Shown here: positions 2,136 to 50,900 of the stretch, in pieces
How positions within the stretch are numbered: the first letter of the stretch is position 1
Layout of the letters: every line of letters begins with the position of its first letter
Source: Liolophura sinensis
Taxonomy: Eukaryota; Mollusca; Polyplacophora; Chitonida; Chitonidae
Direction: 5' to 3'
NCBI RefSeq assembly: GCF_032854445.1
Contig: NC_088300.1
Span: 26,517,608-26,581,607 of the forward strand
DNA: 64,000 nucleotides
Translations under genes and position numbers: made by a program
The notes under the pieces: generated by a model
Seen by the model: only the letters and a program-made list of their open reading frames with translations
Database searches by the model: none
Told to the model about the DNA's origin: nothing

Positions 2136-2889
2136 TCATGGCTTCTGAAGTGTTTCTGACAAAGCCTTCACACGTTGACGCAAAGTCTCTTTCTGTTTTT
2201 TCAGCGATTCCTCCAAACACTTGGCTTCTTGTAAGATACTTTCCAATCTTGTAGGACAAAGTTCTTCAAACTTTTCACTCTCTTCTAAACGTTTAAGCCA
2301 CCTCAATGGCATCAGCTCACATTCTTTTAACAATTCATTGAACACTTCTGCTATCGGTCGCCGGGGACCGGTGCGCTCACTTTTTCCCTCAGTGCACAGT
2401 GGAAGGTCGAGCTGCAGTCGGCCACTCCCTGTCACAGTTCCATTCGCACTTTTATCCGCATCACTTTTTTCATTGGGCGTATGAAGCGATTCCAGCTTAC
2501 TTTCCTCACTATTTGAGCCTGATCCAGTAATTTCGTACTTGTCGTTGTCGTCTAGTTTCGGCTTTTTAAACACCGTCGACGATTCTGGTTCACAAAAGCT
2601 GTGCTTGGATTCAAGGGAGTCGGAGTTTTTGACACTTACGGCACCCACTTGTTCCGAAAGCTCTGTTGATCCCGCGTCAGCAGAATCCTTGAAATTCACT
2701 TGATCGCTGCCGCCGTCACTTTCACTGCGATCACCAGTCACAAACAAGTCACTTGACAGAGCTGAATCTACCCCCGAGTCATTCATTATCTGTTACCAAC
2801 CAAGCTACAACAAATTAATCAGTCAGTCTTTCATGAAAATGTCGTCTGCTGTACACAGAAACGCCACCTGGATATTTTCGCGACTTACC
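2136..2889 (-). CDS. Unidentified 216-aa acidic, Ser-rich protein with C-terminal coiled coil
   Basis: One coding exon runs from ATG (2784-2786) to the stop at 2136. The start is supported by a likely 99-nt 5'UTR intron (acceptor at 2790, GTAAGT donor beginning at 2888) with a non-coding exon upstream of 2889. Residues 1-140 are Ser/Asp/Glu-rich and probably disordered, with a basic KKPK at 74-77 that could be nuclear-targeting. Residues 143-180 form a compact Trp/Leu-rich segment (R-P-I-A-E-V-F-N-E-L-L). Residues 180-214 are strongly helical with Leu heptads, consistent with a coiled coil. The organised C-terminus and biased codon use argue that it is real, but I do not recognise the family and give no function. 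Its 5' end lies about 1 kb from the divergent stathmin-domain gene. Confidence 0.65.
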
Positions 2890-12532: not shown

Positions 12533-12538
12533 TTTTTC
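12533..12538 (-). terminator. Poly(A) signal of HSP90 copy A
   Basis: AATAAA on the minus strand, about 275 bases beyond the stop codon at 12814. It sets a probable 3'UTR of about 300 nt. Confidence 0.6.
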
Positions 12539-12813
12539 TTTTCACATGTCCTTTTCTTCCAATTATATTCATGAAAATTTTAAGACACAGACAAGTACAA
12601 AACACGATCACAATGAATCCACATGAACAACAATTTTTAAATAGTTGTGAGGACACCTCGACGATCTTGTCATTAAATGATGAGAACTATCAATTCTTTT
12701 CTTGAAAGTAATATGCTGACAAATTGCTGAAGGGTGGGGCTACAAGAAACAAATTAATAATAGTGTGTACAATATGGAGGAGGATTCAGTTGAACATTAC
12801 TTTTTTTAAGTTG

Positions 12814-15800
12814 TTAATCAACTTCCTCCATCTTTGAAGCATCATCATCATCGCCTTCCAGAGGTGGCATTTCCTCAGTCTCTGCCACTGCCTCTCCTGT
12901 TGGCACTATATCTTCATCATCAATTCCTGAAAAACACAACATGGTTGCATTACAAGCCAATTCAACAAACTGACATTTTCTGGGCAAGTATGCGAATCCT
13001 CTTAATCACAGGATGCAGTAAGCTGCGCCATCTGAAGCATTTTTTTTTTTTTTTTTTTATAACTGGCCTAATACCATATTCACTGTGGTTATAGCCATGA
13101 AACCGAAGTTACCATACGAAATTCTTTCCAACAGGCAATCACTCTTACATCATGTTTCATCACCTTGGGATGCACATTATTTTAATCAACAATCCGACAC
13201 TATATTCCACTGCTTGTATATTGGGATGTTTTGTTTTGTCACATTGAAAATTATTCAAACACTATTTGGTCTAATCATGACACTAACCCCCAGGTTCTCC
13301 ACTAACAAAACACAAGATCTAACTTCTACTTACCAATTACTGAGATTTTCTATTTCAGAGTAACCCACACTAAGACAACTTTCAACATGAAATAAACCCA
13401 TCTAACCCAAGTGGTGTTTTAACAATTTTTTTAAGTGAAGTTTTCTATTATAGGATGGTGGTCAAGTTGGCTGGCGGAGGAAACCAGACTGCCTGAAGTG
13501 ATCTGCCATTGGTGAGATCCCAACTAAACTTCAAAGCTACACCATAAGCCATGAAAAGTAGATTTCACAGTGTCTTTGGTTGAGAGCCTTACACTCACCG
13601 CCTGCCAGCAGTTTAATATTACGGTTGAAGCCTAAATTTTATTTACCTAATCCGAGTTTGATCATCCTGTAGATTCTGGCTGAGTGAGTTACATTGTCCT
13701 CCAGAGAAAAGCCTGATGCCAGCAGAGATGTCTCAAACAACAACATCACTAAGTCTTTCACAGATTTGTCGTTTTTGTCTGCCTTGACCTTTTCTGATAA
13801 AGATCGGATAATCTGATGGTCTGGGTTGATCTCGAGGTGTTTCTTGGCGGCCATGTACCCCATGGTGCTAGTGTCTCTGAGGGCCTGGGCCTTCATGATG
13901 CGCTCCATGTTAGCTGACCAACCATATTGACTGGTTACAATACAACAGGGAGAGGACACCAAGCGGTTGGATACTACCACCTGAAATAAGCAGAAAATAT
14001 AACATACATTAAGTATTGCTATCCTACATAGAATGTATGTTGAGCACCTGTCTACCAACTCGAAATCTGAAAACAAACCAAGTTTCAGCAACAAAGGAAA
14101 TATTTTCCCTAGAAAAGTTTCACTTCTTCTAGGAACGTTTAGTGTTAGTATTGTATCCTACCAGTGTTTGCATGATCCATTTTAGAAGCAGTATTACAAC
14201 AATTAATTCACAACTGCTACCGGGTCATTACCTTTTCCACCTTTTTATCCAGGATTTCTTTCATGACTTTGCACAGCCCCTCCAGCTCAGCTTTTGCTTC
14301 CTCAAACTTTTTCTTTTCTTCCTCATCCTCTGGCAACTGAAGCCCCTCCTTGGTCACACAGACTAGCGTCTTTCCATCGTACTCTTTAAGCTGCTGAACT
14401 GCGTACTCGTCAATAGGGTCCACCATATAGAGAACCTCGAACCCTCGCTTCTTCACACGTTCCACAAATGCGGAGTTCTGGACAGCTTCACGACTTTCTC
14501 CTGCAAGAAACCATGGCAACAAAATGTAAACTCATTTTACATAATATGGTTGTAAATAAAATTGACATTATAAAATATCCACAGGGTGAATTATCCAAGA
14601 TTTGTGAAACATTCATGGTCGTGTTCTAATGATTGGTATGTGCAACGAGCTAAAAATTACATGACTGCAGTCATTTATGGTTGAGAAAACCTCTATTCAG
14701 CTCTTACGAACAAAAAGAGTTGCCTATTTCTCATCTGGACAAAGATGCCTTAAGTTCTACCCTATTTTCCTGGAATATGGCAGAACACCTAAGTACAGAT
14801 TTATACCTGTGATGTAATAGATGTCTTTCTGGTTTTCCTTCATTCGAGAAACATATTCCTTGAGGGAGGACATCTCGTCTCCACTGGTTGACGTGTGGTA
14901 CCGCAAGAAGTCCGACAGTTTCTTTCTGTTTGTTGTGTCTTCATGCATCCCAAGCTACAATGAAAAGCAACAATTTTTCAGGAAAAAGACAAACACACAT
15001 TGCTTTTCCGCAAGCTTACCCAAGAATTCAAGCAAACTTTGAATTACTGCAAGTTTACACAGGAATCTTCAAGTACACTTTGAATTGCTGCAAGCTTACA
15101 CAGGAATCTTCAAGTACACTGAATTGTTGCAAACTTACACACTAATCTTCAAGCACACTGAATTGCTGCAAGCTTGCACAGGAATATTCAAGCACACTTT
15201 GAATTACTGCAAGCTTACACAGGAATCTTCAAGCACACACTGAATTGCTGCAAGCTCAATAGTAGTCCTTTAAGAACATAGGATTTCTAACTTATCTATT
15301 AACAACAGCTTTTAAAGAGTGAACAAAAGCTAGTGTCAGTGAAGATGAATTTCCAGTGCAAAATTAAAGCCAAAATGGTCCACCAGTGTATAGTACACAC
15401 TGATAAATGGCGCTCACCTTCAAATTTTTGCCGAACTGCTCGTAGAATTTCTTGTAGTTGTCTTTGTCCTCAGCTATGTCGTCAAACAATTCCATACATT
15501 TCTTCACCAGATTTTTCCGGATGACTTTCAAAATCTTGCTCTGTTGTAGCATTTCTCGGGAGATGTTGAGTGGTAAATCCTCAGAGTCCACCACACCACG
15601 GATGAAATTTAAATACTCGGGGATCAAATCCTCACAATTGTCCATAATAAACACTCGCCTCACATACAGCTTGATGTTGTTCCTCTTCTTGCGGTTCTCA
15701 AACAGGTCGAAGGGTGCTCTCTTTGGAACAAACAGCAAAGCTCGAAACTCTAGCTGGCCTTCTACTGAGAAGTGCTGCAAGAGAAAACCACAAGAATAAT

Positions 15801-18792
15801 CAACACACATTGACAATATATTAATTGCAGATTTCATGATGATGAATTATTTATTATACGGTAACTGACCTAAAGTTTCACCCTGGAACTTGGAAAGTGT
15901 ATCCCAGAATTCACTGCGTTGTTTGTGGTTTTTACTGGGTGCCACGAGAGAGCATCAAGGGTGGTTAGGGGGTTACACAGACTGTTCAAGAATGTAATAA
16001 ACAAGCTTGTGCTTCACCATCAACAGTTCATGTTTTCCTCAGTTTTAACTGTAATGATTTTAGTATATGCACTTCGCAACAGCTTGATTGTTTTAGTGTC
16101 ATTTTGTGATAAATGGGAATTGGGAGAAAACCCTGTGAAGATTAAGCATGACTACCTAGTATGCACGTGCAGTCTTGTATTAAATATCCGTTTTAATATC
16201 TGTATGCAAAGTTCTAGCAGAATTTAGCATCCCACTAATCAATACTCGTTCAATGGGCCTAGCAGTAGAGGAGATGAAGCTGTTAAACGGCAATTAAAGC
16301 AACACCTACACACGATTACTTCCGCCCCTGCAGCTAAACATTTCTTGTTCATTCTGGCGTAATTTGAAAGACCATCAACTTCTGCCCACATTTCGTAAAC
16401 ATGAATGACTACTTTTCAGATAATATTTTAGTCATACAGATTGGTTCAAACTACATGTAGAGACAAGCCACTTGCAATCACAAGACTTGAACTTTTCCAC
16501 GTGTCTACCCATCGATAATGCGGCCAAAGGCAAAACAATAATCTTAACTCACATCTGGGCCAAACTGTATACGGGAAATCATAAAACATGCAATTTATTT
16601 TGATATAAAGTTAGTGACAGTGTTGCGTAATGTGATAAACAAATCAGGTTTCCTAATATGCTGGACTCGCACACAGCGCTACCGAAAATAAAGGTAAATG
16701 TAAATGGTGGTAGTTTTCAGAAACCTTGCGTGGAGTAAGTTTTCTGTGTTTAACAGGAGGTTCACCATATAAAAACGCAGAAAAGGCACTCTTCTGCAGC
16801 AGGAGGACAGTTCCAAATGTTAAGAAACAAAATGTGCGTCTAGACTGACATACTAACTTGGAATTACATGGACACAGGAAGCTGAGGAGCTGAAATACGT
16901 TTGTACACATTCTTTGCATAATGATGGCTCTCAGAAGACAACCGTTTACCAGATAACAGTGTGAGGTGACTTCCACATAGGCCTAACCCGCTTAATGTGT
17001 TTGTAGTATACATTGTGCATGTACATTCCTTTCTTGGCGTGGTCATTCTCTAAGATAATGTTTGGAATGTAAAGGTCTGTAATAGACATCACCTGTCTTG
17101 ATATTTTCTTTGATTTCATTCATATTCATATTTAGAGATGAACATGTAGACCTGCACACCTCAATGTCAGTGATTTGACCTTATGTGACGCGCATTAGCA
17201 ATCAGAGCTGCCAAATGCCATTCACGGTTATGAAACAGGCTGCGGGTTTATCACTCTCTTCTGCCATCTTGCCGCCAACTCAGATTGTGGGAAAGTAAAT
17301 GACAGTAATTCATGTGTGAAACTTTAGATTATTTAGGGTATATTTAATTCCGAAATTACAGAGTGCCCACTGTAGTGAAAATTCCCGATAAACCTTACTG
17401 ACCAAAGGCAACAGCTAAAGTGAAAACAGAATGAGATGTTGTTTCATGTGAAAGCCAGATGGGCCCCATACATTTACCTCCACTATCACAAGCAGCCAAA
17501 GGGCAGAAATGCCACACCTAACTGCAGTTCCACTGAAGTAATTATCAGCAGCATATTATAATTTATAACTCTGATGCTTACATCAGCTGTCAGCAACAAG
17601 AATTTGGCTCCCAACAATAAATCCCTTACAACTGTCAATCCCTAAGTTTACCTTAACAGCTAAATGGTCCTCCCAGTCATTGGTCAAAGATTTGTAGAAC
17701 TCTCCATACTCCTCCTGCGTGATGTCGTCTGGGTTACGTGTCCACAGAGGCTTGGTTTTGTTCAGCTCTTCAAACTCTGTGTAGTTCTCTTTGATGGTTT
17801 TCTTTTTCTTGTCTTTCTTGGAATCGTCCTCCTCATCTTCATCAAGGTCTTCCACTTTAGGCTTATCCTACATGAACAATAGTTAGGTTAAAAATACATC
17901 CATCAAAAACCTTTCAATATGAGATTTTAAACTAATTTAAGTGGGAAAAGGAAAGAAAATCAATTTTCAATAATTTATGTCTTGAATCAAGGGACACAAC
18001 TCCTGGTGTCTGTTATATCTCCTCAATCTGCATTTGTTGACCAAGACTTAATCTCACCTTCTCTTCGTCTTTGTCTTCCTCTTTTTTCTCCTCTTCCTCC
18101 TCATCATCAGACACTTCCTTATCTCTTTGCTTCTGTACCAGAAGGCTGATAGGGTACCCAATAAACTGGCTGTGTTTCTTCACCACTTCTTTCAGGCGTT
18201 TCTCCTCCAAGTACTCTGCTTGATCTTCCTTCATGTGCAGGGTTATCCGAGTTCCTCTGCTCAGCTGTTCCCCTGTCAATGGCCGAATGGTGAACGACCC
18301 ACCGGCAGAAGACTCCCATATGTATGCCTCATCATCGTTGTGTTTGGACATAACTGTAACTTTATCTGCTACCAAGTAAGCCGAGTAGAACCCCACACCA
18401 AACTGTCCAATCATAGAGATATCGGCACCGGCTTGCAGGGCCTCCATAAATGCCTTGGTTCCGGACTTGGCAATGGTACCTAAGTTGTTGACCAGGTCTG
18501 CCTTTGTCATGCCCACGCCTGTGTCCACTATGGTCAGGGTGTTCTGCTCTTTGTTAGGGATGATCTGTATGTATAGGTCTTTCCCGCTGTCCAACTTAGA
18601 CGGGTCTGTCAAACTCTCGTATCGAATTTTATCCAAAGCATCCGAGGAGTTTGAGATAAGTTCTCTGAGGAAGATTTCTTTGTTGGAATAGAAGGTGTTG
18701 ATGATTAAGCTCATCAACTGAGCAATTTCGGCCTGGAAGGCGAAGGTTTCAGCCTCCCCTTCCTCAATTTGCTGGCTCTCGATTTCAGGCAT
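12814..18792 (-). CDS. HSP90: Cytosolic heat shock protein HSP90, copy A (723 aa)
   Basis: Coding exons, in order of translation, are 18058-18792, 17652-17867, 15418-15774, 14807-14954, 14232-14500, 13647-13980 and 12814-12926. All are GT-AG and in phase, giving 723 aa plus TAA. ATG follows the acceptor directly (ttttcacag/ATG). HSP90 is a dimeric ATP-driven chaperone for kinases, receptors and other clients. Residues 1-220 form the GHKL ATPase domain, with E44 (catalytic), N48, D90 in V-D-T-G-V-G-M, and the Gly-rich lid G-Q-F-G-V-G-F. Residues about 221-280 are the acidic/Lys charged linker. The middle domain carries R390 in N-I-S-R-E-M-L, and the C-terminal dimerisation region ends in M-E-E-V-D, the TPR co-chaperone motif. 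There is no signal peptide or KDEL, so it is cytosolic. It is paired head-to-head with copy B at 22318-28392. Confidence 0.97.
15012..15262. repeat. Minisatellite of 39-41 bp units in HSP90 copy A intron 4
   Basis: About six units carry aggaatcttcaag at 15061, 15102, 15141 (variant), 15180 (variant) and 15221. The core is gaattgctgcaagcttacac. The matching intron of copy B (25479-25861) has none, so the array arose or was lost after duplication. Confidence 0.85.
16005..16490. mobile_element. About 485-bp insertion in copy A intron 3, absent from copy B
   Basis: Flanking sequence on both sides aligns closely with copy B intron 3, where the same point reads cacgtggaaagtttgtttat without interruption. 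The insert ends carry short imperfect inverted repeats (aagcttgtg and cacaagactt), suggesting a small DNA element. Deletion from copy B is the alternative. Confidence 0.5.
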
Positions 18793-19305
18793 CTGTGAAA
18801 AAGAAAGTAAAAGTTGCATTACTACATTGTGGACGTAAAATGTATACATATTTTCACTGATTATTGGCAGCTGTAATTGCTACGATACATGTTTTTATTA
18901 GTTCTAATTTCAAACCCTGTCCCTACATCATTTTCCGAGAACAAAAGAAAGCTCTACATCCACGACGTACGCATATAGTCCGCGCATTCTATTTTTGCTA
19001 ATTCATTGCTCAATCCACTTACTGCTTTCACCAGTTCTACTGGGTCCGTCGCGTGAATCATTCAGCTTATGGTAAAAGAAATAGTTCAAACAATGCCAAA
19101 GGTATTTAATTAAATCTATATCAAGCCATGGTTCATCAACCAAGGAAGTTAACATGAAGTTAACTTCTTCAAAACCACGTGGGGAGTTCCTTTGTCGGTA
19201 AATCGATCATCATGATGCCGACTGATATTATGTAAAATAAAAAACAAAAATTATGCATACCGGTATTTGCATTTTCATTATGGCCTTACATTCTGTTTCA
19301 CTTAC
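18793..19305 (-). other. 5'UTR intron of HSP90 copy A
   Basis: The donor is GTAAGT at 19305-19300 (minus strand) and the acceptor cacag abuts the ATG. An intron just before the start codon also occurs in copy B. The two intron sequences are not alignable by eye. Confidence 0.7.
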
Positions 19306-19550
19306 CGTGATGATTAACTATGAGAATATCAGAAGAATCGACTAGAACTCCACTGCTCCTGTTGAAGGTAGGTGCGATCGCTTGTTCCTGCAGCGACTTG
19401 ACTAACGCACGTGTTTGTCGAAATGATTGATCACGTGACTGGAGATAACAGCGTCATTTCAATAAAAAGTAAAATTAAAGAGGTTCCCAGATATTTTGAG
19501 AAACGTAACGCAACAAACAATGACTCACATTTATTTTTGGCTATTATTTT
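19306..19550 (-). other. Non-coding first exon of HSP90 copy A (5' end estimated)
   Basis: The exon ends at the strong donor at 19305. Its 5' end is placed about 30 bases downstream of the TATA-like sequence. It contains a palindromic E-box, tcacgtga, at 19431-19438. Confidence 0.5.
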
Positions 19551-19576
19551 GAAAAATAGTGTAATTTTCAGCAGGC

Positions 19577-19651
19577 ATTATAAATATAAAGAACGCCCTA
19601 TTTGATGCGCAAGTTCATCATTTCGCCGTAATGCGGTTTTCTAGAAAGTTC
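19577..19651 (-). promoter_or_regulatory. HSP90 copy A promoter: TATA-like box plus perfect 3-unit heat-shock element
   Basis: ttctagaaagttc at 19639-19651 is a perfect TTC-nn-GAA-nn-TTC heat-shock element. A TATA-like TATATTTA (minus strand) lies at 19581-19588, about 50 bases closer to the gene. The arrangement fits heat-shock-factor control; inducibility itself is inferred. Confidence 0.7.
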
Positions 19652-19993
19652 ATCAGGCGAATTACGGAAGTGTTGATGGAGTTTAGTTCCGGCCGTACTC
19701 CACGCAGCGATGTGGCCAAATCGCCCCTACTTACGAACTACAATCAAGTTACCGTGTATACACATTACTCGGATTCGCTGAAGTATATCTGCAGCATTCC
19801 GGACGTGGTTTGAAAAACATGTCAAATGCTATTAGATATGGCCTAAATTAGAAACACAATTTAGGTATAGTATATGGGTTTATTTTACACCAGTTGAAAA
19901 AGAAGAGACGAGAACTTTATGACAGATACAAGAATATACATGGAATTTATGCATACATGGTAGCGAAAATAAATGCTAATTTCAACCACCCCA

Positions 19994-20258
19994 TGTTTAT
20001 TTATTTATTTATTTATTTGATTGGTGTTGTGCGCCATACACAAGAGTATTTCTCTTATACGACAGTGGTCAGCATATTATGGTGGGAGGAAAACAGGCGG
20101 AGCCCAAAGGAAACCCACGACCATCTGCAGGTTGCTGGCAGACCTTCCCACTTTCGGCCGGAGCATGGGCTGGAAATGAACTCACAGCGACCGCATTTGT
20201 GAGAGGCTCCTGGGTCATTACGCTGCGCTAGCGGGCTACCCGAGCCACAGAGGCCCCC
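19994..20258 (-). mobile_element. tRNA-derived SINE (family 1), near full length
   Basis: On the minus strand it starts gggggcctctgtggctcggg (tRNA head), passes a B-box-like tgtgagttcatttcc, then the body, and ends in (AAATA)n. It shares the conserved 3' body (caccaatcaaataaataaat) with the other family copies in this window. It lies between the two HSP90 promoters. Confidence 0.85.
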
Positions 20259-21512
20259 GATAACCCCACGTCAATGCTGCATTAAAGTACTGTATTTAAA
20301 TTACTACATATGTTCAACACATTAAAACATATGCTCTAGACACAATGTATACCCTTCAGAATATATCAGCGGCTTCTATGCACAGTTCAAAATCTGTAAT
20401 AAAATATTAATTAACGTTCATATAAAATTTATAATGCAGGTCGCTTTTATAACTTTTTCATATTTTATAATCATTTAAACAATATAAATAATACAGGTAT
20501 GAGGTTAATAACTTTAATTAAGAAATTATACAAATCAAGGTTGTCCAACAGACTTTTTTTAATATATTATTTAATTAAGGACCAACATATGATTTTCTGT
20601 GTAATGCATCTATGTTCATAGCTATGGGCCTATCACTGCAATAAACGAAGCATCCCAATCAAGAACCTCGGGCGATTTTTAATAAATGCAGCCTTCATAC
20701 TGATGTACTTATAGGGTTTTAATGCACGCCTATACACATGCAATAATTTATAGTTTATTAAACTTTTGATGATACGTACGTTTTTTAAAATAATATAGTC
20801 TCGTGGATGCGAGTACGCTCGTGACACCACCTCTTTCAGTGAAGATTGAGTGTTTATACCAGTATCTGGCGTGTCTTGCATTGCATGGCGTAAATATGAA
20901 CTCGCGTTGTACAGCTTGTATGTAATGTGTGTTTATTGTCATATGTTCATCAAGATCAGATGATATTTTACACCAGGCCTATTACAACCTCATTGTGCAT
21001 GCATACGTATGTGCGTTAAGAGCATATAAAATCGTTAACAAGCGGAGATGAAATCGAACTTCATGTCACTGCTAATAATGATGAAATCAGTTAATTTAGT
21101 CAGAGTATATACGTAAGTTCAGTACACGTTCTGCGAACCCCAGGCATGTCATTCTAGGCTTATCTAAATCACCAATTTTAAAAAAATGTTTTTCAACAGC
21201 TTTAAAATTTTTATACAACTATAAAATCAGTTTGTCTGTATACAGGGAAGTAAAACAGACATGTATACAGTTACGTGAAATGAATGGGCTTCTACTAAAT
21301 ACACGCACAATGTCGGCCTGCATGCGTAAACAAACTTTTGTGTTGTATTGAGTGGCAACATTTCTTATCTTTCGTAATAAAACATACATGTTTACATGTT
21401 TCAGAACTAATTTTCAGTCGCTTGTAAACACTGCGAATGTTCAGGAAAAATATCGCGAAGAATCTAATTATAATACTCGGACGTTGACACAGTTGAAGTA
21501 TTTTTGATCAGA
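20259..21512. other. Central spacer of the HSP90 inverted pair
   Basis: AT-rich single-copy-looking sequence. I see no exon or repeat beyond simple AT richness. Confidence 0.5.
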
Positions 21513-21561
21513 GAAATTTCTGGAAAGCCGCTTCACAATAATACCAATGCAACTTCCTGAA
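21513..21561 (+). promoter_or_regulatory. Heat-shock elements upstream of HSP90 copy B
   Basis: gaaatttctggaa at 21513-21525 is a perfect GAA-nn-TTC-nn-GAA element. A two-unit TTCctGAA follows at 21554-21561. They lie about 220-270 bases before the expected transcription start. Confidence 0.7.
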
Positions 21562-21742
21562 TATAGTCCCTCGTTATTTCGTTGATATAGCCACAATTAT
21601 GACCTTAACATTGTTCCCATTAAATTATAATTGCAAATTTAACGTAAGTAATGCGCCAGGGTATTGCTTCAAACGTCAAAATTAGCCAAGAAAATTTTTT
21701 TCGAAATGATGGAGCAGGGTTTATGGGTTGCCCTGTTTGGAG

Positions 21743-21757
21743 ATTGGATTGTATAAA
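21743..21757 (+). promoter_or_regulatory. HSP90 copy B core promoter (inverted CCAAT and TATA box)
   Basis: ATTGG at 21743-21747 is followed by TATAAA at 21752-21757, which predicts a start near 21782. Confidence 0.75.
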
Positions 21758-21781
21758 TGCGTCGCGAAAGCTCGAGACCTG

Positions 21782-21875
21782 TTAGATTACTCAAGAACTA
21801 CTTAGATATTCGACGATCACAAAGCGTTAGCAGACGACATACTGCGTTTCCTGAATATTTGCTACTGATATTAAG
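21782..21875 (+). other. Non-coding first exon of HSP90 copy B
   Basis: It runs from the TATA-predicted start to the donor at 21876 (attaag/gtgagt). The intron 21876-22317 ends directly at the ATG, mirroring copy A. Confidence 0.65.
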
Positions 21876-22317
21876 GTGAGTTATGGTTTTGATCAGATCA
21901 GGATGGACGGGGTAAAACGTTGTTGTAGTGTCTCAAAGATCGCCGAGAATCTGTGCTAAAAACTAAATTATATCCACATTTGAGACACCGTTAGAGCCGG
22001 GAGCACTGAGCACGTGTTCTTGCATATACGGACGCATCATCATTTTCTGGTCGACTTTAAGTCTGGCTAAGCACAGTGCGTTGGCATTTCATTCTTTTTT
22101 ACTTTATTCTGGTGTATTAATAGTGGCAGTCCTTTTGAAACTGCTGAGAATATCTGTATTTTAACTTGAAGGAATATGAACCAAATTATATAGGCTGCCT
22201 GTTTTTTACTTGGCAGAAATATATGTACTACCTGACAATGACAGGTGAAAGTGCGCAGGTGGAAGACATTATTTCAATAATTCTATGCTAACGTATTTAC
22301 TTGTGGTTAATTTTCAG

Positions 22318-25300
22318 ATGCCTGAAATAGAGAGCCAGCAAATTGAGGAAGGGGAGGCTGAAACCTTCGCCTTCCAGGCCGAAATTGCGCAGTTGATGAG
22401 CTTAATCATCAACACCTTCTACTCCAACAAAGAAATCTTCCTCAGAGAACTTATCTCAAACTCCTCGGATGCTTTGGATAAAATTCGATACGAGAGTTTG
22501 ACAGACCCGTCTAAGTTGGACAGCGGGAAAGACCTATACATACAGATCATCCCTAACAAAGAGCAGAACACCCTGACCATAGTGGACACAGGCGTGGGCA
22601 TGACAAAGGCAGACCTGGTCAACAACTTAGGTACCATTGCCAAGTCCGGAACCAAGGCATTTATGGAGGCCTTGCAAGCCGGTGCCGATATCTCTATGAT
22701 TGGACAGTTTGGTGTGGGGTTCTACTCGGCTTACTTGGTAGCAGACAAAGTGACAGTTATGTCCAAACACAACGATGATGAGGCATACATATGGGAGTCT
22801 TCTGCCGGTGGGTCGTTCACCATTCGGCCATTGACAGGGGAACAGCTGAGCAGAGGAACGAGGATAACCCTGCACATGAAGGAAGATCAAGCGGAGTACT
22901 TGGAGGAGAAACGCCTGAAAGAAGTGGTGAAGAAACACAGCCAGTTTATTGGGTACCCTATCAGCCTTCTGGTACAGAAGCAAAGAGATAAGGAAGTGTC
23001 TGATGATGAGGAGGAAGAGGAGAAAAAGGAGGAAGACAAAGACGAAGAGAAGGTGAGATTGGTTTTCATTCCCTTTTATTCATCATGTAAATTGAAGAAT
23101 TGCTTAACCAGACCTTCATTCATATCATATGCTTTAAGTTAAGTGTTTTAACTGATCCTGACCATCAGGTGCAAAATCATTATAATGTAGTAATTTAAGC
23201 CAACCATCAGCTAAAACTAAAGTAGCCAACCTCTAATTTCAGATGAGAGAATGTAAATTATCCTGGAAGAAATCACAGTGATCAATAAAACAAAAATAAT
23301 TTTTGAGTTTGTCCATGTTGATTGTTCACTTGGGATAGAAAGCAGTTTTAGTCAGGAGTTATGCCCTTTGGATAGAATATATAGATACCGTACATGTTTG
23401 ATGTTTAAGCTGAATGACATCATAAAATTGATCTGAAACCTCCAGCATCACTGAGTAAAAGATTTGGTGACAGGTTTCTAAACCTAAGTGTTCTTACAGG
23501 ATAAGCCTAAAGTGGAGGATCTGGATGAAGACGAGGATGATGATTCCAAAAAAGACAAGAAAAAGAAGAAAACCATCAAAGAGAACTACACAGAGTTTGA
23601 AGAGCTGAACAAAACCAAGCCTCTGTGGACACGTAACCCAGATGACATCTCGCAGGAGGAGTATGGAGAGTTCTACAAATCTTTGACCAATGACTGGGAG
23701 GACCATTTAGCTGTTAAGGTAAGATTAGGGATTGACAGTTGTAAGGGATTTATTGTTGGGAGCCAAATTCTTGTTGCTGACAGCTGATGTAAGCATCAGA
23801 GTTATAAATTACAATAAGCTCCTGATAATTACTTCAGTGGACCTGCATTTAGGTGTGGCATTTCTGCCCTTTGGCTGCTTGTGATAGTGGAGGTAAATGT
23901 ATGGGGCCCATCTGGCTTTCACATGAAACTACACCTCATTCTGTTTTCACTTTAGCTGTTGCCTTTGGTCAGTCAGGTTTCTCAGGAATTTTCACTACAG
24001 TGGGCACTCTGTAATTTCGGAATTAAATCTACAGTAAATGATCTAAAGTTTCACACGTGAATTACTGTCATTTACTCTCGCACAATCTGAGTTGGCAGAA
24101 AGAAGACAGAAGACAGTGATAAACTCTCAGCCTGTTTCATAACCGTGAATGGCATTTGGCAGCTCTGATTGCTAATGCGCCCCACATGGGGTCAAATCAC
24201 TGACATTGAGGTGTGCAGGTCTACATGTGCATCTCTCAATATACCCGTGAATGAAATCAAAGAAAATATCAAGACAGGTGATGTCTATTACAAACCTTTA
24301 CATTCCAAACATTGTCTCAGAGAATGACCACGCCAAAAAAGGAATGTACATGCACAATGTACACTGCAGACAAACTGTTTGATCGGGTTAGGCCTATGTG
24401 GAAGTCACCTCACACTGTTATCTGGTAAACGGTTGTCTTCTGAGAGCCATCATTATGTAAAGAATATGTGTACAAATGTATTTCAGCTCATCAGCTTCCT
24501 GTGTCCATGTAATTCCAAGATAGTATGTCAATCTAGACGCACATTTTACAGTTGGAACTGTCCTCCTGTTGCAGAAGAGTGCCTTTTCTGCGTTTTCATA
24601 TGACGAACTTCTGTTAAAAACAGAAAATATACTCCATGTGAGGTTTCCGTAAAATACCATGATTTACATTTACCTTTATTTTCGGTAGCGTTGTGTGCGA
24701 GTCTCACATATTAGGAAACCTGATTTGTTTGAGTTGTTAACACATTACACAACACCGTCACTAACTTTATATCAAAATAAATTGCATGTTTTATGATTTA
24801 CTGTATACAGTTTGGCCCAGATGTGATTCAAGATTATTGTTTTGCCTGTTGCCGGCAAAAATTATGCTATCAATGGGCAGACACGTGGAAAGTTTGTTTA
24901 TTACATTCTTAAACAGTCTGTGTAACCCCCTAACCACCCCTGATGCTCTCTCGTGGCACCCAGTAAAAACCACAAACAACGCCATGAATTCTGGGATACA
25001 CTTTCCAAGTTCCAGGGTGAAACTTTAGGTCAGTTACCGTATAATAAATAATTCATCATCATGAAATCTGCAGTTAATAAATTGTCAATGTGTTGATTAT
25101 TCTAGTGGTTTTCTCTTGCAGCACTTCTCAGTAGAAGGCCAGCTAGAGTTTCGAGCTTTGCTGTTTGTTCCAAAGAGAGCACCCTTCGACCTGTTTGAGA
25201 ACCGCAAGAAGAGGAACAACATCAAGCTGTATGTGAGGCGAGTGTTTATTATGGACAATTGTGAGGATTTGATCCCCGAGTATTTAAATTTCATCCGTGG

Positions 25301-28300
25301 TGTGGTGGACTCTGAGGATTTACCACTCAACATCTCCCGAGAAATGCTACAACAGAGCAAGATTTTGAAAGTCATCCGGAAAAATCTGGTGAAGAAATGT
25401 ATGGAATTGTTTGACGACATAGCTGAGGACAAAGACAATTACAAGAAATTCTACGAGCAGTTCGGCAAAAATTTGAAGGTGAGTACCATTTTTATTGGTG
25501 TGTAATATACCATCCTTAATGCTGTAGTCTTAAAATAAGTATAATTGCTGGTGACTGAATAGTATGCAAGAGGCAAGATTCATTCAATCTGTATTGGCAG
25601 TTCACTGATTTTTTTTCTAAAAATTCCTCATTTTTTAACCAGCTCAATATTATGTTGAAAGAAAGTAATAAATCTGCATGGAATGGTCTCTAGCCTTCAC
25701 ATGGCAGGAATCCTTGGTTACATATTTTTGCTTTCATTAGAAAATGATACTGACATCAACAAAACTATAGTTGTGAATTATTGCCTAAAATTGAAACTAG
25801 AGAGACGTGTTTGCCCGTATCAACTAATGAACGTATGTATTTACAAATTCCACTTGTTCAGCTTGGAATGCATGAAGACACGACAAACAGAAAGAAATTG
25901 GCCGACTTCTTGCGGTACCATACATCAACCAGTGGAGACGAGATGTCCTCCCTCAAGGAATATGTTTCTAGGATGAAGGAAAACCAGAAAGACATCTACT
26001 ACATCACAGGTAACTTGATATTTTAATATAATTGTCCTTTTCCTCTTTCAAGATCTATTCTTATCTTCAGAAACTTGGCTAGTTTTCCTAAAAGCATATG
26101 GCTGATGTGAAGTTGGCATATTTTTTAATCCCGTAAGGTGGCACTAGCGTGAAGCAAGACCTCAATCTATTGTTATGTCAAAATTTGTTGTTGTGCAACG
26201 TCTACAATGTTGCAGTGTATTAGTTTCTACTGTAACGTACTTGGGCTGTATTGTGATGTCATAACGATGAGCTAGGAAGCAAGCATTTAACGTCATTAAA
26301 ATGGCGTCAAGGTCCACATTGATCAGATTCTGTTACCGTACCTAAGGCACAAACCTGCTTAACAGGAAATATCAAACAAGGTAATGTTTACCATTCTGGC
26401 TAGTTCAGTTGGAGTTGTGTGTAGGTGACTCATGTTAATCAGAGATCAGTGGTAATGATGAGTTTTTTCACCGGAGTTTAAATTTTGTTGCCATGGTTTC
26501 TTGCAGGAGAAAGTCGTGAAGCTGTCCAGAACTCCGCATTTGTGGAACGTGTGAAGAAGCGAGGGTTCGAGGTTCTCTATATGGTGGACCCAATTGACGA
26601 GTACGCAGTTCAGCAGCTTAAAGAGTACGATGGAAAGACGCTAGTCTGTGTGACCAAGGAGGGGCTTCAGTTGCCAGAGGATGAGGAAGAAAAGAAAAGG
26701 TTTGAGGAAGCAAAAGCTGAGCTGGAGGGGCTGTGCAAAGTCATGAAAGAAATCCTGGATAAAAAGGTGGAAAAGGTAAGTACCCAATAGTGGTTGGAAA
26801 GTGAACAAGTTTTTTCTTGTTCCATAGGATGAATTCCATAAGATGGAATTCACTTCGAAGGACATTTTTCAAAATTTCTCAGGGCATAACCTTATCCTGT
26901 CAGCAATCAACATTGTAGGTATTCTTTATCCTGGCTAGTGAAAAATATAAGGATTTCTTAAAATATCATTTCTTTGATAATTTGATCAGTTGTATTGATG
27001 GTCCAGTATTATGGCTCCTGTACTGTAAAGAATTTTGTTTTGTATGGATATAGGATTTTGATGCTCTGTGCTATATTATTCCCGAGTAGTCCGTAGCACA
27101 TTATAAAATGTAAAATTTAAATTGAATAATGTTTATATTTGTGTATTTTCTGCTTATTTCAGGTGGTAGTATCCAACCGCTTGGTGTCCTCTCCCTGTTG
27201 TATTGTAACCAGTCAGTATGGTTGGTCAGCTAACATGGAGCGCATCATGAAGGCCCAGGCCCTCAGAGACACTAGCACCATGGGGTACATGGCCGCCAAG
27301 AAACACCTCGAGATCAACCCAGACCATCAGATTATCCGATCTTTATCAGAAAAGGTCAAGGCAGACAAAAACGACAAATCTGTGAAAGACTTAGTGATGT
27401 TGTTGTTTGAGACATCTCTGCTGGCATCAGGCTTTTCTCTGGAGGACAATGTAACTCACTCAGCCAGAATCTACAGGATGATCAAACTCGGATTAGGTAA
27501 GAACCACATATGTTCATAAGTAACATCCCTTAAATTACTGTATTTCACTTAAAGTTTGGCCCGTAAAAAAAAAAAATTCACTTTTAGAGGTAAATAAAGG
27601 CCACAAAGTCCGAACACTTAAGTCGTTTCAGATAAGATATAATCAAACTTCAGACAGCTCATGAAGTGTTTTTGGGGGAATTTTTTCGCGAATTTGTGGG
27701 TTGGTTCACTTAAAGTCAGATACTTGTCAGGAGAGACCTGGAAAGCTTCACTTTAAGTAGATGATGTATAAAATAGCAGCACTTTTTGTTTTTGTCATCG
27801 TTAATATGTCTCAGTGGCCCGGGAAGGAGCACGATTGAATTAGAATCGAGTAAAATGTTTCAGTTGTAAAATGTTAAACTTTCAGTGAAATACAGTAATT
27901 TGAAATCATGAACATAAGCAGCTACTCAAAAATTGAGTTGTACATAATCTATATGAACTGAGTGTAACGACAACAGGTTTTACATCACATGGTTATGCTT
28001 CTAAGTAGCTTCTAAACTTTAAAAGAGAAATTAAGAAAAAAACATGGACTGAATAGAGCACTGGCTGTGATACATTTATTTATTTGATTGGTGTTTTATG
28101 CCATACTCTAGAATATTTCACTTGTACAGCAGCCACCATTATGGTCAAAGGGAACGGAGCAAAGGCTGTGATATACCATACACTGCAGCAGAATGTGGGG
28201 AACATCTTGTCAAAGAGCATGTTTCATCAAAGATATCTCCTGCTGAGAGTTTTTTGTGCTGGTGTTACAGGTATTGATGATGATGATTCTGCCATGGCAA

Positions 28301-28392
28301 CAGATGATGGGGCTGGAGGAGACACAAGTGAGGAAATGCCCCCACTGGAGGGTGACGACGATGATGCCTCTAAAATGGAGGAGGTGGACTGA
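22318..28392 (+). CDS. HSP90: Cytosolic heat shock protein HSP90, copy B (727 aa)
   Basis: Coding exons are 22318-23052, 23500-23718, 25122-25478, 25862-26009, 26507-26775, 27163-27496 and 28271-28392 (TGA). Positions and phases equal those of copy A. Exon 1 (245 aa: ATPase domain and start of the linker) is identical in protein to copy A. Exons 3 and 6 are also identical; exons 2, 4 and 5 differ by one inserted Lys and a few substitutions (E/D and T/S in exon 2, S/A in exon 4, K/R in exon 5). Landmarks are E44, N48, D90 and R391. Exon 7 differs clearly upstream of the shared end: copy B has [14 protein letters not shown] where copy A has [11 protein letters not shown]. Both then converge on [10 protein letters not shown] and the M-E-E-V-D motif. 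It is complete, with no frameshift. Confidence 0.97.
23719..25121 (+). other. Intron 3 of HSP90 copy B, closely alignable with copy A intron 3
   Basis: The first 250 bases are almost identical to the reverse complement of 17651-17400, and similarity continues to the acceptor. The main exception is the about 485-bp block present only in copy A. The other introns of the pair are not alignable by eye. Confidence 0.8.
26121..26300 (+). repeat. Dispersed repeat, copy 2 (relative of 8651-8830)
   Basis: It lies in copy B intron 5 and matches the reverse complement of 8651-8830 over about 180 bases. It is absent from the corresponding copy A intron (14501-14806). Confidence 0.6.
27533..27900. mobile_element. 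MITE with 25-bp inverted ends (CTGTATTTCACTTAAAG family)
   Basis: The left end aattactgtatttcactta and the right end (reverse complement aattactgtatttcactga) match at 24 of 25 positions. It is 368 bp, has no coding capacity and lies in HSP90 copy B intron 7. Related ends occur at 32332-32522 and 36048-36190. Confidence 0.75.
28073..28165 (-). mobile_element. SINE family 1 fragment in HSP90 copy B intron 7
   Basis: It has the tail plus the first 80 bases of the conserved 3' body (atttgattggtgttttatgc). The tRNA head is missing. It ends about 105 bases before exon 7. Confidence 0.7.
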
Positions 28393-29135
28393 AGAACATG
28401 ATGTTTAACCTCTCTTTTCAATCACCCTAAATCATCCCAGGCTTCTTGCAGACAGAATCTTTCTTGGGAAATCAGGTCCTCAAGTTTAATTGGCTTTATG
28501 CAGAAGTGGTTTCTAGATCATCACCTTTGATGATCGTGCAAAAAACGTGCAAAAGACTTCAACAGAGTGGTGGTGTCATGGATGACTTCATTTGTATATA
28601 AGCCTGAATTCGCACATCAATTAGTATTCATATCACATTGTTAGGGGGATCCACAAAGTAGAAGTTTTGTTAGGTGTGAGTATATGTGAGATTAAAATCA
28701 TGTTCTTTGTTGTTAAGAAGGTACAACTGAAGACTCCATTCAATATTACCACTTCATTTTATTCCATTTTATACTGTTAAACAGGTTTTCACTTTCAGTT
28801 TACATGTTCAGTTTGTTGGTCTGCTGTGTAACCACTAACATTTCATGCCAGATATTGTTTTTGTTTCTTTTATATATTTATAAAATGTCCAAGCTTTATG
28901 GATAGCATTTGATGTGATACACCAACACTTAGCTGTTTATTTGTAGTGAAATGTATAGTAAGTGTTCAAGCAACATAACAATTACATTGAACAGCTCTGT
29001 TCCAGAATTACAGTTCTTGATTGCAAGTGAACTGCGATAACCAATGATTTATGAGCAACTTACACTTGAACTCGGTTTCGTATTACTTTGTAAAAGTAAA
29101 CGTTGAATTTTCAAATAAACGTAGTTTATTTGTAT
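28393..29135 (+). other. 3'UTR of HSP90 copy B
   Basis: Non-coding sequence from the TGA to AATAAA at 29114-29119. It is not alignable with the copy A 3'UTR. Confidence 0.6.
29114..29119 (+). terminator. Poly(A) signal AATAAA of HSP90 copy B
   Basis: Canonical hexamer about 720 bases after the stop codon, with no earlier good candidate. Confidence 0.6.
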
Positions 29136-44913: not shown

Positions 44914-47900
44914 TTAATACCCATTTTCACTTACCACTTTTCCCGGTCTAGCCCATGTATAAACACAGCCCTCTTGGCAGGCTGTCACTATACATTCCTC
45001 CCTAAACACTAAAGATGTCAGCCGCTCATGGGCCACCTTTTTACAGATAAGAGGTTCTAACACAGGTATATCGTCTAGCCGAGGGCAGGCTGGAGTGCCT
45101 AATAGTTTGATAGATTCATCCACAGGACGAACATGGTTGGCCTTCATTAGGTTAACTTTGTCACTACTTCTGCTAGCCAAACTGAAGTTCCTCTTATGCT
45201 CCTTTTTGTCGTGGTTATCTTTGTCTTTCTTTTCGCCCAGAGACAATGTAGCAAACTTAGGAGTAATGTTTAAGGCGTTTGGAGCAGCTGGTATATTTCC
45301 ATCCATATATACACTATCTTTTGAAACACAGTTCACTTTCTGCGAGTGCGGCAGGCTGTTGCTGCGCGCAGGTAAGCCAAACGCATTCTGACTGATCAAT
45401 GTACTTGTGCGTGTTCGCCCGACAGGAGTTCGTATAACATCCTCCGTCAGGTCCCAGAGACACAACATTGTATCCTGCCCCACAGAACCGAATCGGTAAG
45501 ATGTTAGTTTGAGGGACTGCCCGTCCCCGGAGTTACGATTTGCGCTTGACGTCCCAGCCCGCTGGGCTGACACGTTATTCGCTTGATGCTCTTTTGGAGG
45601 TGACGTATGGTTACTAGAGTTTTTAGCGGTATGAGCACCATCCTCTTCCGTAGCAGAAAAATCACAGTCTTGAGGGGGAACACAGGAGGTGAACATGTCA
45701 AAGGCCACCACGTTGACCCATGACCTATGACCTTCACCCCGACACACGACCCGTTTTTCCTGGACACACCAGACTGTCACCAGGTCATCTTCACCGCCAG
45801 TCACGATGAATTTCCCATCCGGCGACCAGCACACACACAACAGACCCCCAAAGTAACTCTTCATTGTGCCCACAAGGTCCATAGAGTCGTAATTAAAGAC
45901 GCGCAGATACCCGTCCTGGCCCACCACAGCCAGGTACTTCCCGCACGGGGAAAACGCAAACTCGTTGATAGCACCATGTCCCACAACCCAGCGATAGAGT
46001 GGGTTTCTAGTGCTCTTAGTTTTGCATGTGGTTATAGAGTAGCCTTCACCCTGTTTGAACGGCTGGTAGTGAGGGGGCGTGGTTCCACATGGCATTTCCT
46101 CATTGTATACATACATGTGACCGCTGGCATGAGACACTAGGAACTGGTTTGGGGAGGCTGGGATCCACTTGATACATGTCACTTTTGTCTTGTCTATCAG
46201 TCTCTGAAATACCACAAAAAGACATCAACTGGGCCCTCCCATATTAGTATATACATGAATCTACAGACTAGTGCTTTAATTACGTGATAAATGTATTGTT
46301 TTACACTTTCATACTGAATATCATCAGGATTTTTTTCCTGTTTTGTATTCTCCTCTCAAATCATTGAAGGTCTTATTATATATTTTCCAAAACTCTCACC
46401 ATTCCTAACAGACATAAAAAAATCTTTAAATGAGTGTTTACAAATTCACGTATTACGTTGTCAACCCTAACATAACTAGCAGCTTGTCAAATCCAAGGGG
46501 AAAAATAACATCGAAGGTAAGTAAATGAATCTTACCATTACAATACATGATGAATACTGTAGTAAACTAAAGACTGATAAGAGTTTTAAACACTATTAAA
46601 TGTGAAACTTCAGAAAACTCTTCGATGCAACCCTTCCATTCTTGGAGAATGAAATCATGAGATGATTTACACAGTTTAAATTCAGTTCTAATCTAATTCC
46701 CCAACTGGGCAAATTACTGACAAACTTTCCCACATGTGACACACAAATATGCCCATCATACTGGTGGAAAACATGGTCTTCACGAAATGTTAAAACTTCA
46801 GAAATGGTCATGTGAGTGTCATCAACCACTTATTGCCACCAAAGCCCCCACAAGCAATGGAACGAGGGAATTTACAAATTCTTTTCCGAAGAATTTTGAG
46901 CCCCCATCTTGTGTGCCCTAGCAATTAACAGGCAGACAAATTTAGCCATTAGACCAAGGCCTGCTCTCAGGGTGGTTAGCATTCAGAACTCTGTCGCACA
47001 AACAGAAAGAAAAACTTCATGAATTACAGGGATATAACCTACATGTATGCTTTACTGCTGCAGCTACTTGGGGAATTTCCCTTTAACCAACCAATGTTCC
47101 AAAAAAGAAAAAAAAATTATCAGTGTGAACTGGTTCACAGAGATCTCTACTCTAGCATACAGTGTAGAGTACATCACTGTAGTTCACAGGAGATTGCTAC
47201 ACAGGTTGGGAAAGTACATGTGTTAAATCACCATTTGTATCTATAGTGGTTCACTTCAAATACATGAAAGTGACAGAGCCTTCAAAAAGGATAAGTAACA
47301 GGTTTGCTGAAAGCTGACAATCCTTGTCACCTTGCCTCCTTTCGAAATTACAGTTACAGTCTCCAGATTTGATCACCGTCCCTAGATTTGGTCACCCCAA
47401 AGTATATGTACAGTAAGTTGCATTTAGCTTAGCCTATGTTTAACCAGGATCTCTCAAACCAGCCAACCGGAGACGATTCTGTATCCTTTAAGCTACAGAC
47501 AAGGCTTTACTTTTGACAGGGATCTCGGTATCAGATTCTTGTACAAAACAAAACAAGGGGAATCTGCTTGGGTTACCATAACAAGACACATTTACAACAC
47601 AGTATAACCTTCAAAGTATTAAAGTTACGAACGTGAAATTCCAAAAAATCTTTTAACTTCTCATTTGCCTTAAAACCAACTTGTTCAAGATACTAGATTT
47701 GGACTACATTCGAGCAAAATAAACAAATGGGGATGCATTTAGATTCTGGTAAAAAAAAAAAAATTACAAAAATAAAGCCTTGTGCACGTATAATTTCAAT
47801 TCAGCCATGTATATTCCAGGTATGGGGTGTGGCGTTAAGCCATAATCATTCATTCCAGATCTTAACTTTGATTGCTGTTAGCCAATGACGCATTCCATAC

Positions 47901-50900
47901 CTCTTCGTTACAGAGCTTGCTGAGTTCTTTTTTGATGGGGTCAATCAGCTGTATCTGTCCAGCAGTAAAGCCGACCAAGAGTAAAACGCTGTCACTGGTC
48001 AGGTTGAACTTGTTAAAGTCATGACATGTTGGGAATGTGCCACGATACGCCCGCTTATCTATTGGCTTGGTCAGATCTGCAGCCTGCAACAAAAGAAATT
48101 CAGTATTCAACTCCAAAATGTAACCGCTGATAGCTGCTTCTCTACATATATCACCAGAAACAGGTAGAGAGTGGATTTTAAATAAAACATGCCACACAAA
48201 TATGAAGACATTATCTGATAATAGAGAAATCTATATAAGAGAAAATATAACTTGGAATCTTCATCCATGAGAAACAAAACTAAGTTACATGTTTGACCCA
48301 AACACCATCCAGATGGGAGGGGACTCATAAGATGCTCAAGTTAGTAGGTCATGTAATTTATTTATTTATTTGATTGTTGTTTTATGCTGTACTCAAGAAT
48401 ATTTCACAGATCAAACGGCGGCCAGCATTATGATGGGAGGAAACGGGGCACAGCCTGGGGGAAACTCACGACCATCTGCAAGTTGCTACCAGAACTTCCC
48501 ACTTATGGCCAGGGAGGAAGTCAGCAGGTGCTTTGCTTGAATTTACATTGACTGCATTGTTGAGATGCTCCTGGGTCATTGCGCCTTGTTGGTGAGCTAA
48601 CTCCCTCAGCCACAGATGTCATGTAATGTGATCCCTGAAAACTCAGGTCCATTTTCGATGAACTCAATGAAGAGACAATTCATAACTTGACTCATTTAAA
48701 AAGTGAAGTGTTTCATCACAGAATTTTATGAAACTGTCACCTGCTCGGTGCTAGGTTACCATGACATAAACCACAAGACATCTCTGAATGTGAAATATTA
48801 AAAGAACGTCTTTAGATAATTTCCTTCAATTTTAAAGATGCACTTACGCTAGTTTATACAAGCTACGAAACATACATGCTCATGTATTTTAATTTAAACG
48901 AAGAAAAAGAATCTGATAGTAATGGGTATACTTGTACTTCAGTATTTTGTTACTTTCCAAGGGTGGTAAGAGTTCGTGTCTCTTGCCAATTTTCACCAGA
49001 CAAAAAAAAAAAACACGAAGATTTTGTGCCTGGTAAATATTATATGGAATTCCAAGAGCATGAATCGTACATATAAGTGATTATGACACTGTAGACCCGA
49101 AAACTACTTGTGCAAGACATAAGTTTAAAAAAAAAATGTTCACTATGGTATACACAATTACAGGCAGCCACATTCCTGTGGTCTCAACTACAGTATAACA
49201 CACATGTCTGGAAAAGAATGCATAACTCCAGCTTCACCGCAGAGATTTCATAACATATACTGTACATATACATGTAACACAGTCTGTTTAATTGTGATAT
49301 GTGCCATGGCAGTCGCTATCTGCTGTCCACATATATGTACATGTAGTGGTATATGAGCCTGTACTTGACACAGAGATGATTGGCACCAACAGAGCATGTC
49401 AGATCCAGCAGGTCAAGGTGTTGACAGTATGGACCAGTCCTGTTTAGTGTTTAGTGGAATACTGCCAGTTGGAAACACCCACAGCTTACATCAACATATA
49501 TATCTACCCTAAATGACAATAAATTTTGTCCATGACTAAAACTATTAACTTACTCATTTTTCCTGATTGTGACAGTTCTTTTGATCACAAAAAAGTGTTT
49601 TAAGGTCTGTTGGGATGGTAAGATGATACCCTACTGGATAAATGTGAGTTTCAGCACCCAAATATACTATTTTGCAATATTTATTTGCCTCTAAAAGTGC
49701 ACTTTTGTGTGCAATACATTTTAGGTCAATTAGGGTATATATATTGTAAATAGCGTGTATAAACATGCACAGAATATGTTTTCCAGAAGACACAATGAAT
49801 GTTAATGTACAATGTACATGTATCTTAACGACCATTCTGTAAATATGGCTTACCATATATACATGTACGTGCAATAGAAATAAGCAGACATGATGACTTT
49901 ATGTGACAGACTGAGATTGTATTATTTTCCTCAACCTGTGAAAGGATTATGATTCTTTCTTATAGTTCTCACATACACCCTAAATGATCTGAAATTTCAC
50001 CGACAAAAGTGCATTTTTATATCGTTTCAACGTTATTTTTGGTGCTGAAACTAACAGTTTTCCAGAAGAATATCATCCCTGTTCCAAGCAAACCTCAAAA
50101 CACCTTTCCAAAATCAATAGAACTCTCAGAATAAGGGAAAATGGGCAAGTTAGTCACAGACGAAATTTATGGTCATTAGGGTAGATCCTTGTCCCAAGCT
50201 AGCATTTTTATATTTTCGGAGAGGTCCTGCACCTGGCCCCTGAAATCTGCACATATCCCTCTTAAGGAGCAATGTTAATATTACTTTCAGTGGAAAGTGC
50301 ATTTGATCTGCCTTTGACCCATATATCTTTTGATTTCTACCTGAGGGTCTCCAGATATGCACCACCCCCCAAAATACACTGACATTAGGATTTATTTCAT
50401 AACCCGTGAATTCTGCGCACAAACTTTTAGCATAACTACAGTACTTGTAGGTATATCATCAACTCAGTGATGTGCATGTGTGACACTGTATCCAAACCAA
50501 CACCTCCCTGAGGTCCATACAAAATGTCACCTTATTATCACATGGTCTGATCCAGATCAGAATTCCCAGGCCAGTCTGAAGCTAGGGTCACATGACCAGC
50601 TCACTGAACTGCTCAGCCACCTCATTCATTCTCATGCCACCACACTTCTCATTCATAATCTTATTTGACGCACTGAATAAAATATTAGTCAAATATCTGG
50701 AGGCCTGCATTAACACATGGCATACATGCAGAGGCAAGTGAAATCTGCCTTTGTACTACATAAATGTATTTAAGTACAGTGCTAAAATCTAACAAATCTT
50801 ATCTAGTATTTATATATTTTCTGATTGGTGTTCCACAAAACACTCAAGAATTTTACACTTACACGACCAGTTGTCAGGAGACATGATATTCAGTTCCCTT

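Follow-up and report, generated by a model that had tools for sequence, protein, structure and literature searches.

The two cytosolic HSP90 genes that lie head to head in the genome of the chiton Liolophura sinensis are, with high probability, the product of an old inverted duplication followed by repeated, patchy gene conversion between the arms, in the course of which a transposon would have been carried across. Silent divergence between the arms is a mosaic, both arms contain one and the same transposon insertion, and that insertion predates their last exchange of sequence. The first-pass annotation of this locus had proposed an old inverted duplication with repeated conversion, and the uneven silent divergence, a break within exon 2, and the transposon common to the arms all bear this out.

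The window, the whole stretch of 64,000 nucleotides analyzed here, contains both genes complete, A on the minus strand and B on the plus strand, each with seven coding exons separated by GT-AG introns and encoding proteins of 723 (A) and 727 (B) residues that end in MEEVD at the C terminus (Table 1). Their ATGs are 3,525 bp apart, in keeping with the annotation's description of two complete inverted genes around a spacer of about 3.5 kb. A profile search matched PF00183 in both proteins, and residues 4-727 of B align with cytosolic HSP90-alpha chains over the ATPase, middle, and C-terminal regions; this chain search was run with B, and A is placed by its identity to B in exons 1, 3, and 6 and near-identity in exons 2, 4, and 5. 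A profile search of the contigs of the 609-Mb genome (632 contigs) returned 12 HSP90 pieces in the window, 8 on C7, and 5 on C8, and the relatives on C7 and C8 are closest to endoplasmin (one exon piece) and TRAP1/HSP75 (two exon pieces). With exon 1 as a DNA query, only arms A and B were recovered among the best candidates scored, and neither this nor the profile search produced a further cytosolic HSP90 among those candidates. By sequence, A and B are cytosolic HSP90s distinct from the endoplasmic reticulum and mitochondrial relatives. Downstream of gene B lies WDR20 (44914-59969, minus strand): a match to WD repeat-containing protein 20 at 8e-147 comes from the frame at 44914-46224, and the frames at 47862-48230 and 59592-59969 are presumably earlier exons. 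Human HSP90AA1 likewise neighbors WDR20, so the chiton pair may occupy the ancestral HSP90 locus. Two further open frames in the window, at 2136-2792 (minus, 218 aa) and 61995-62408 (plus, 137 aa), have no Pfam match at E 0.001.

Table 1. Positions of the HSP90 pair and associated features within the window
Feature	Position	Strand	Remarks
HSP90 gene A, coding part	12814-18792	-	Splice sites, open frame; PF00183 matches exon by exon
HSP90 A coding exons 1-7	18058-18792, 17652-17867, 15418-15774, 14807-14954, 14232-14500, 13647-13980, 12814-12926	-	
HSP90 gene B, coding part	22318-28392	+	Splice sites, open frame; full-length match to HSP90-alpha and HSP90-beta chains
HSP90 B coding exons 1-7	22318-23052, 23500-23718, 25122-25478, 25862-26009, 26507-26775, 27163-27496, 28271-28392	+	
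Spacer between ATGs	18793-22317		Both 5'UTR introns, presumed non-coding first exons, promoters; two sides unrelated
Exact three-unit heat-shock element, gene A promoter side	19639-19651	-	
Exact three-unit heat-shock element, gene B promoter side	21435-21447	+	
Second exact three-unit heat-shock element, gene B promoter side	21513-21525	+	
Homogenized continuous stretch, arm A	15418-17801	-	Exon 2 (last two thirds), intron, exon 3
Homogenized continuous stretch, arm B	23566-25478	+	Same parts
Inverted-repeat transposon, gene A intron between coding exons 2 and 3	15856-17335	-	About 1.48 kb
Same transposon insertion, gene B	24035-25042	+	Without a 487-bp stretch present in A (16009-16495)

Exons 1-6 of the two proteins differ by four substitutions and one indel in total. 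As the annotation had described, exons 1, 3, and 6 encode identical protein and exons 2, 4, and 5 differ at few sites, namely E258D, T296S, and one additional K in B (exon 2), S451A (exon 4), and K551R (exon 5; alignment numbering throughout). The main site of difference is the linker in exon 7, which is followed by a 20-residue stretch common to A and B. Comparison of the arms by blastn gave seven matches, which cover the first six coding exons, a single intron, and, at 72% identity, exon 7. For coding exons 1-7, dS is 0.069, 0.283, 0.014, 0.401, 0.018, 0.014, and saturated (pS 0.83), respectively. Uniform divergence, which had been named in advance as one of the results that would count against conversion, is rejected by a G test for a single common silent rate (p = 6.5e-21 for seven exons, 2.9e-7 for exons 1-6). 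Exon 2 is itself a mosaic, with 10 of 22 codons differing at its start and 2 of 51 at its end (change point, permutation p = 0.0012), and exon 4 is unhomogenized at silent sites (dS 0.40; p = 6e-6 versus the four long exons). Conversion had been predicted for all of exons 1-6; homogenization is seen in exons 1, 3, 5, and 6 and over the later part of exon 2, with exon 4 and the opening third of exon 2 largely spared. The longest identical run in exons 1-6 is not significant (p = 0.053), and the sum of squared runs gives p = 0.007. Exons 3, 5, and 6 retain one silent difference each (1.4-1.8%), close to the heterozygosity of 1.24% given for this chiton genome in a passage of PMC11068029, which indicates that they were last overwritten recently, near allelic divergence, with ages that are loose at one silent difference per exon.

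Outside the exons, introns 1, 2, 4, 5, and 6 and the 3'UTRs score no better between A and B than shuffles do, and the two promoters show no similarity above shuffles. Intron 7 yields one weak, A/T-rich gapped match (score 21 versus a maximum of 18 in 200 shuffles under one scoring scheme; p = 0.05 under the other), at most a trace of similarity. The alignable intron sits between coding exons 2 and 3 and had been numbered 3, which holds only when the 5'UTR intron is counted as 1. It has 95 mismatches in 1,379 aligned columns (93% identical), with 19 of the 500 columns lying within 250 of an exon mismatched versus 76 of 879 deeper in (Fisher p = 5e-4), a gradient that is equalled by 63 of 1,379 circular shifts and on which we place little weight. 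Identity also reaches past the 5' edges of exons 3, 5, and 6 into the preceding introns (29 of 30, 29 of 30, and 19 of 20 bases) and has no such extension upstream of exons 1, 2, 4, and 7. The intron after coding exon 3 carries, in gene A only, a tandem array of a 41-base unit (15010-15256; about 6.2 copies, 85% matches).

Near-identity of most coding exons is what a recent duplication without conversion would produce, provided that introns, promoters, and UTRs evolve very fast. That account is extremely unlikely, however, given that five introns are at chance level beside one that is 93% identical in aligned columns, that silent divergence ranges more than tenfold among exons of one gene, and that a five-copy hsp70 cluster in the same genome has alignable flanks beside ORFs that are 97-98% identical. 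The mosaic refutes it, save in the event that local mutation rates shift by over tenfold within a few hundred bases. Nor does the pair resemble two alleles joined by misassembly into an inverted repeat. Coverage by HiFi reads was only 14x, with a mean read of 8.3 kb, according to the assembly details in PMC11068029, but alleles at 1.24% heterozygosity would keep alignable introns, whereas the promoters, the 3'UTRs, and five introns are unrelated here, and every common stretch is far shorter than a read; such an artefact is almost inconceivable.

Most of the alignable intron is an interspersed repeat. In a genome search that scored the best 40 of 524 candidates, it has at least 57 matching pieces outside the arms at 66-87% identity, which fall within intron positions 305-1805. 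From its terminal inverted repeat, a 22-base piece is present 205 times when one mismatch or fewer is allowed, versus 0 for the backwards pattern. Six copies of the element and their flanks contain no stop-free stretch longer than 131 aa, which speaks against a coding gene in this intron, and the element is therefore taken as non-autonomous or decayed. We aligned arms A and B with six other genomic copies out of the 57 pieces mentioned above. Identity is 92.2% between A and B and 77-81% between the arms and the six, A and B have in common 80 derived changes at 926 scorable sites, and a tree of the eight copies joins them with support of 1.000, a stem of 0.099, and tips of 0.048 and 0.043. Among the 77 differences between A and B within the element, the change is assigned to A in 31 cases and to B in 33, with 9 ambiguous and 4 fitting neither. 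Both arms hold a single insertion, and about two thirds of its changes predate the last sharing between A and B. Independent insertion at the same base is ruled out by the common derived changes together with nearly 300 bp of non-element flank present in the introns of both arms (score 267). The 487-bp stretch absent from B is covered in the other copies (mean 5.7 of 6) and so was lost by B.

HSP90 is among the most conserved proteins, and one could suppose that the duplication is old and that selection alone, through silent sites and a functional intron element, has kept the arms alike, the alignable intron being a place where a regulator might reside. Silent sites were nevertheless free to change in exons 4 and 7 and at the start of exon 2, a transposon copy from which B has lost 487 bp makes up most of the conserved intron, and a search for RNA genes found no Rfam match at gathering thresholds and no tRNA in the window, all of which renders selection alone very unlikely. 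The homogenized tract includes neutral DNA in the form of this transposon.

The order of duplication and insertion can be approached if introns and transposon copies are taken to drift at comparable speed. Duplication after the insertion would cap the divergence of the other introns at about 0.29 substitutions per site, double the sum of stem and tip. When fragments of the element in A are set against the six copies, the scores at the first percentile of 200 draws are at least 39 (140 bp), at least 132 (400 bp), and at least 221 (670 bp); the other introns, compared between A and B, score 9 to 21. Since the latter fall far below the former, we infer that the duplication is the older event; the element appears to be younger, and its transfer from one arm to the other is very probable. 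As a sequence common to both arms, the transposon supports conversion with no need of related species.

The exons with low silent divergence measure 735, 357, 334, and 269 bp and those not or only partly homogenized 216, 148, and 113 bp, a correlation of length with silent divergence (Spearman -0.77, exact one-sided p = 0.025) that is drawn from seven exons. Exons of 216 bp or less have largely escaped homogenization, near the minimal efficient homology of about 200 bp that a passage in PMC3924818 gives for yeast and rodents. Exon 1 breaks a strict rule of length, being the longest and yet having a dS of 0.069 versus 0.014. The annotation had spoken of conversion over selected stretches, a wording that can be refined, as the homogenized parts look like those long enough to recombine rather than chosen ones.

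In the most probable account, an ancient duplication of an HSP90 gene gave rise to the inverted head-to-head pair, the arms of which would then have overwritten each other in part, repeatedly, and at differing times by gene conversion. With introns, promoters, and 3' ends having drifted past pairing, the exons under selection would have been left as islands for recombination. Exons 1, 3, 5, and 6, as islands of more than about 250 bp, would still be overwritten, some as recently as alleles diverge, and those below that size (the start of exon 2 and exons 4 and 7) would be out of reach. The transposon would have landed in one arm after the duplication, and one or more events that spanned the intron, from inside exon 2 to exon 3, would have brought it across, the transfer making a long new island of homology. 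The runs of identity fit conversion at the DNA level that halts at unrelated intron. Most of their boundaries lie at or near exon edges, as they would if spliced RNA had been copied back to DNA, touching the exons and sparing the introns, but identity spans the whole exon 2-3 intron, extends upstream of exons 5 and 6, and starts inside exon 2, and an RNA template would delete introns; the intron-spanning tract excludes this route there, and we give it scarcely any credence overall, although single exons might still be affected. Returning to conversion between DNA arms, the transposon itself might have been the driver if breaks there, for example through excision and subsequent repair of the gap on the template of the other arm, began the exon 2-3 conversion, a proposal that we regard as doubtful. 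Were it true, transfer of the element would have rebuilt long homology between arms that were nearly unable to recombine, the 487-bp loss in B would be the scar of an interrupted repair, and a decaying inverted pair would have regained concerted evolution by means of a mobile element.

The spacer contains three exact three-unit heat-shock elements, one upstream of A and two upstream of B, versus 0.037 expected, and neither the gene bodies nor a 13-kb control has any; when one mismatch or fewer is allowed, the spacer contains 5 versus 1.07 expected and the control 9. Both genes may on this basis be heat-inducible. Donors of the presumed non-coding first exons, read from the sequence, lie near 19306 and 21876. 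Also within the spacer, at 19995-20258, is a short interspersed repeat with many genome copies at about 83-85% identity among the 40 best of 5,416 candidates scored. As far as sequence can tell, the pair probably yields close to a single HSP90 protein from two unrelated, separately evolving heat-shock promoters.

Benedict et al. reportedly found in 1996 that concerted evolution in the Hsp82 pair of Anopheles albimanus is limited to coding sequence. That pair is similar in comprising two cytosolic HSP90 genes with a coding part that evolves in concert and a remainder that does not, whereas homogenization in the chiton proceeds exon by exon, skips short exons, and crosses a transposon-bearing intron. 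The Drosophila Hsp70 loci 87A and 87C, said to have been treated by Leigh Brown and Ish-Horowicz in 1981, are reportedly also inverted heat-shock gene pairs under gene conversion; the genes there are intronless, so that an effect of exon islands would be invisible. Conversion in linked inverted heat-shock pairs is treated as an established theme in the relevant portion of PMC3199776, which counts Anopheles albimanus Hsp82 among linked inverted pairs. The same source describes Capitella teleta Dlx genes as linked inverted duplicates with a converted patch that extends briefly into an intron; as presented there, they differ from the chiton pair in lying tail to tail, in having a single short patch, and in encoding transcription factors. 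The two Aplysia californica hsp90 copies, in the lines that PMC3774752 devotes to them, are three nucleotides apart and have dissimilar flanks, and they resemble the chiton genes in being near-identical amid such flanks and, unlike the linked chiton pair, are on separate contigs. Within the chiton genome, five intronless hsp70 genes (L007-L011, on C10 at about 18.98-19.05 Mb; two plus, three minus) have ORFs that are 97.0-98.4% identical over 10 pairs and flanks alignable by blastn. Their ungapped upstream identities are unreliable because of indels, and the cluster, likely a second and younger inverted heat-shock case, serves as a contrast only.

No publication on this chiton HSP90 pair was found in the literature searched. 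The process itself is known; what is new is this instance of it, the relation to exon length inside a single gene pair, and the use of a transposon as tracer. With seven exons of 113-735 bp, most of them amid unrelated introns, the pair offers a natural test of the homology needed for recombination, and its exons divide into homogenized and escaped near the 200-bp minimum from yeast and rodents. A transposon passed from arm to arm would place conversion after the duplication without a second species. To the extent that the promoters can be read from sequence, the locus suggests a way for an animal to maintain an essential protein almost unchanged between two genes with unrelated heat-shock promoters.
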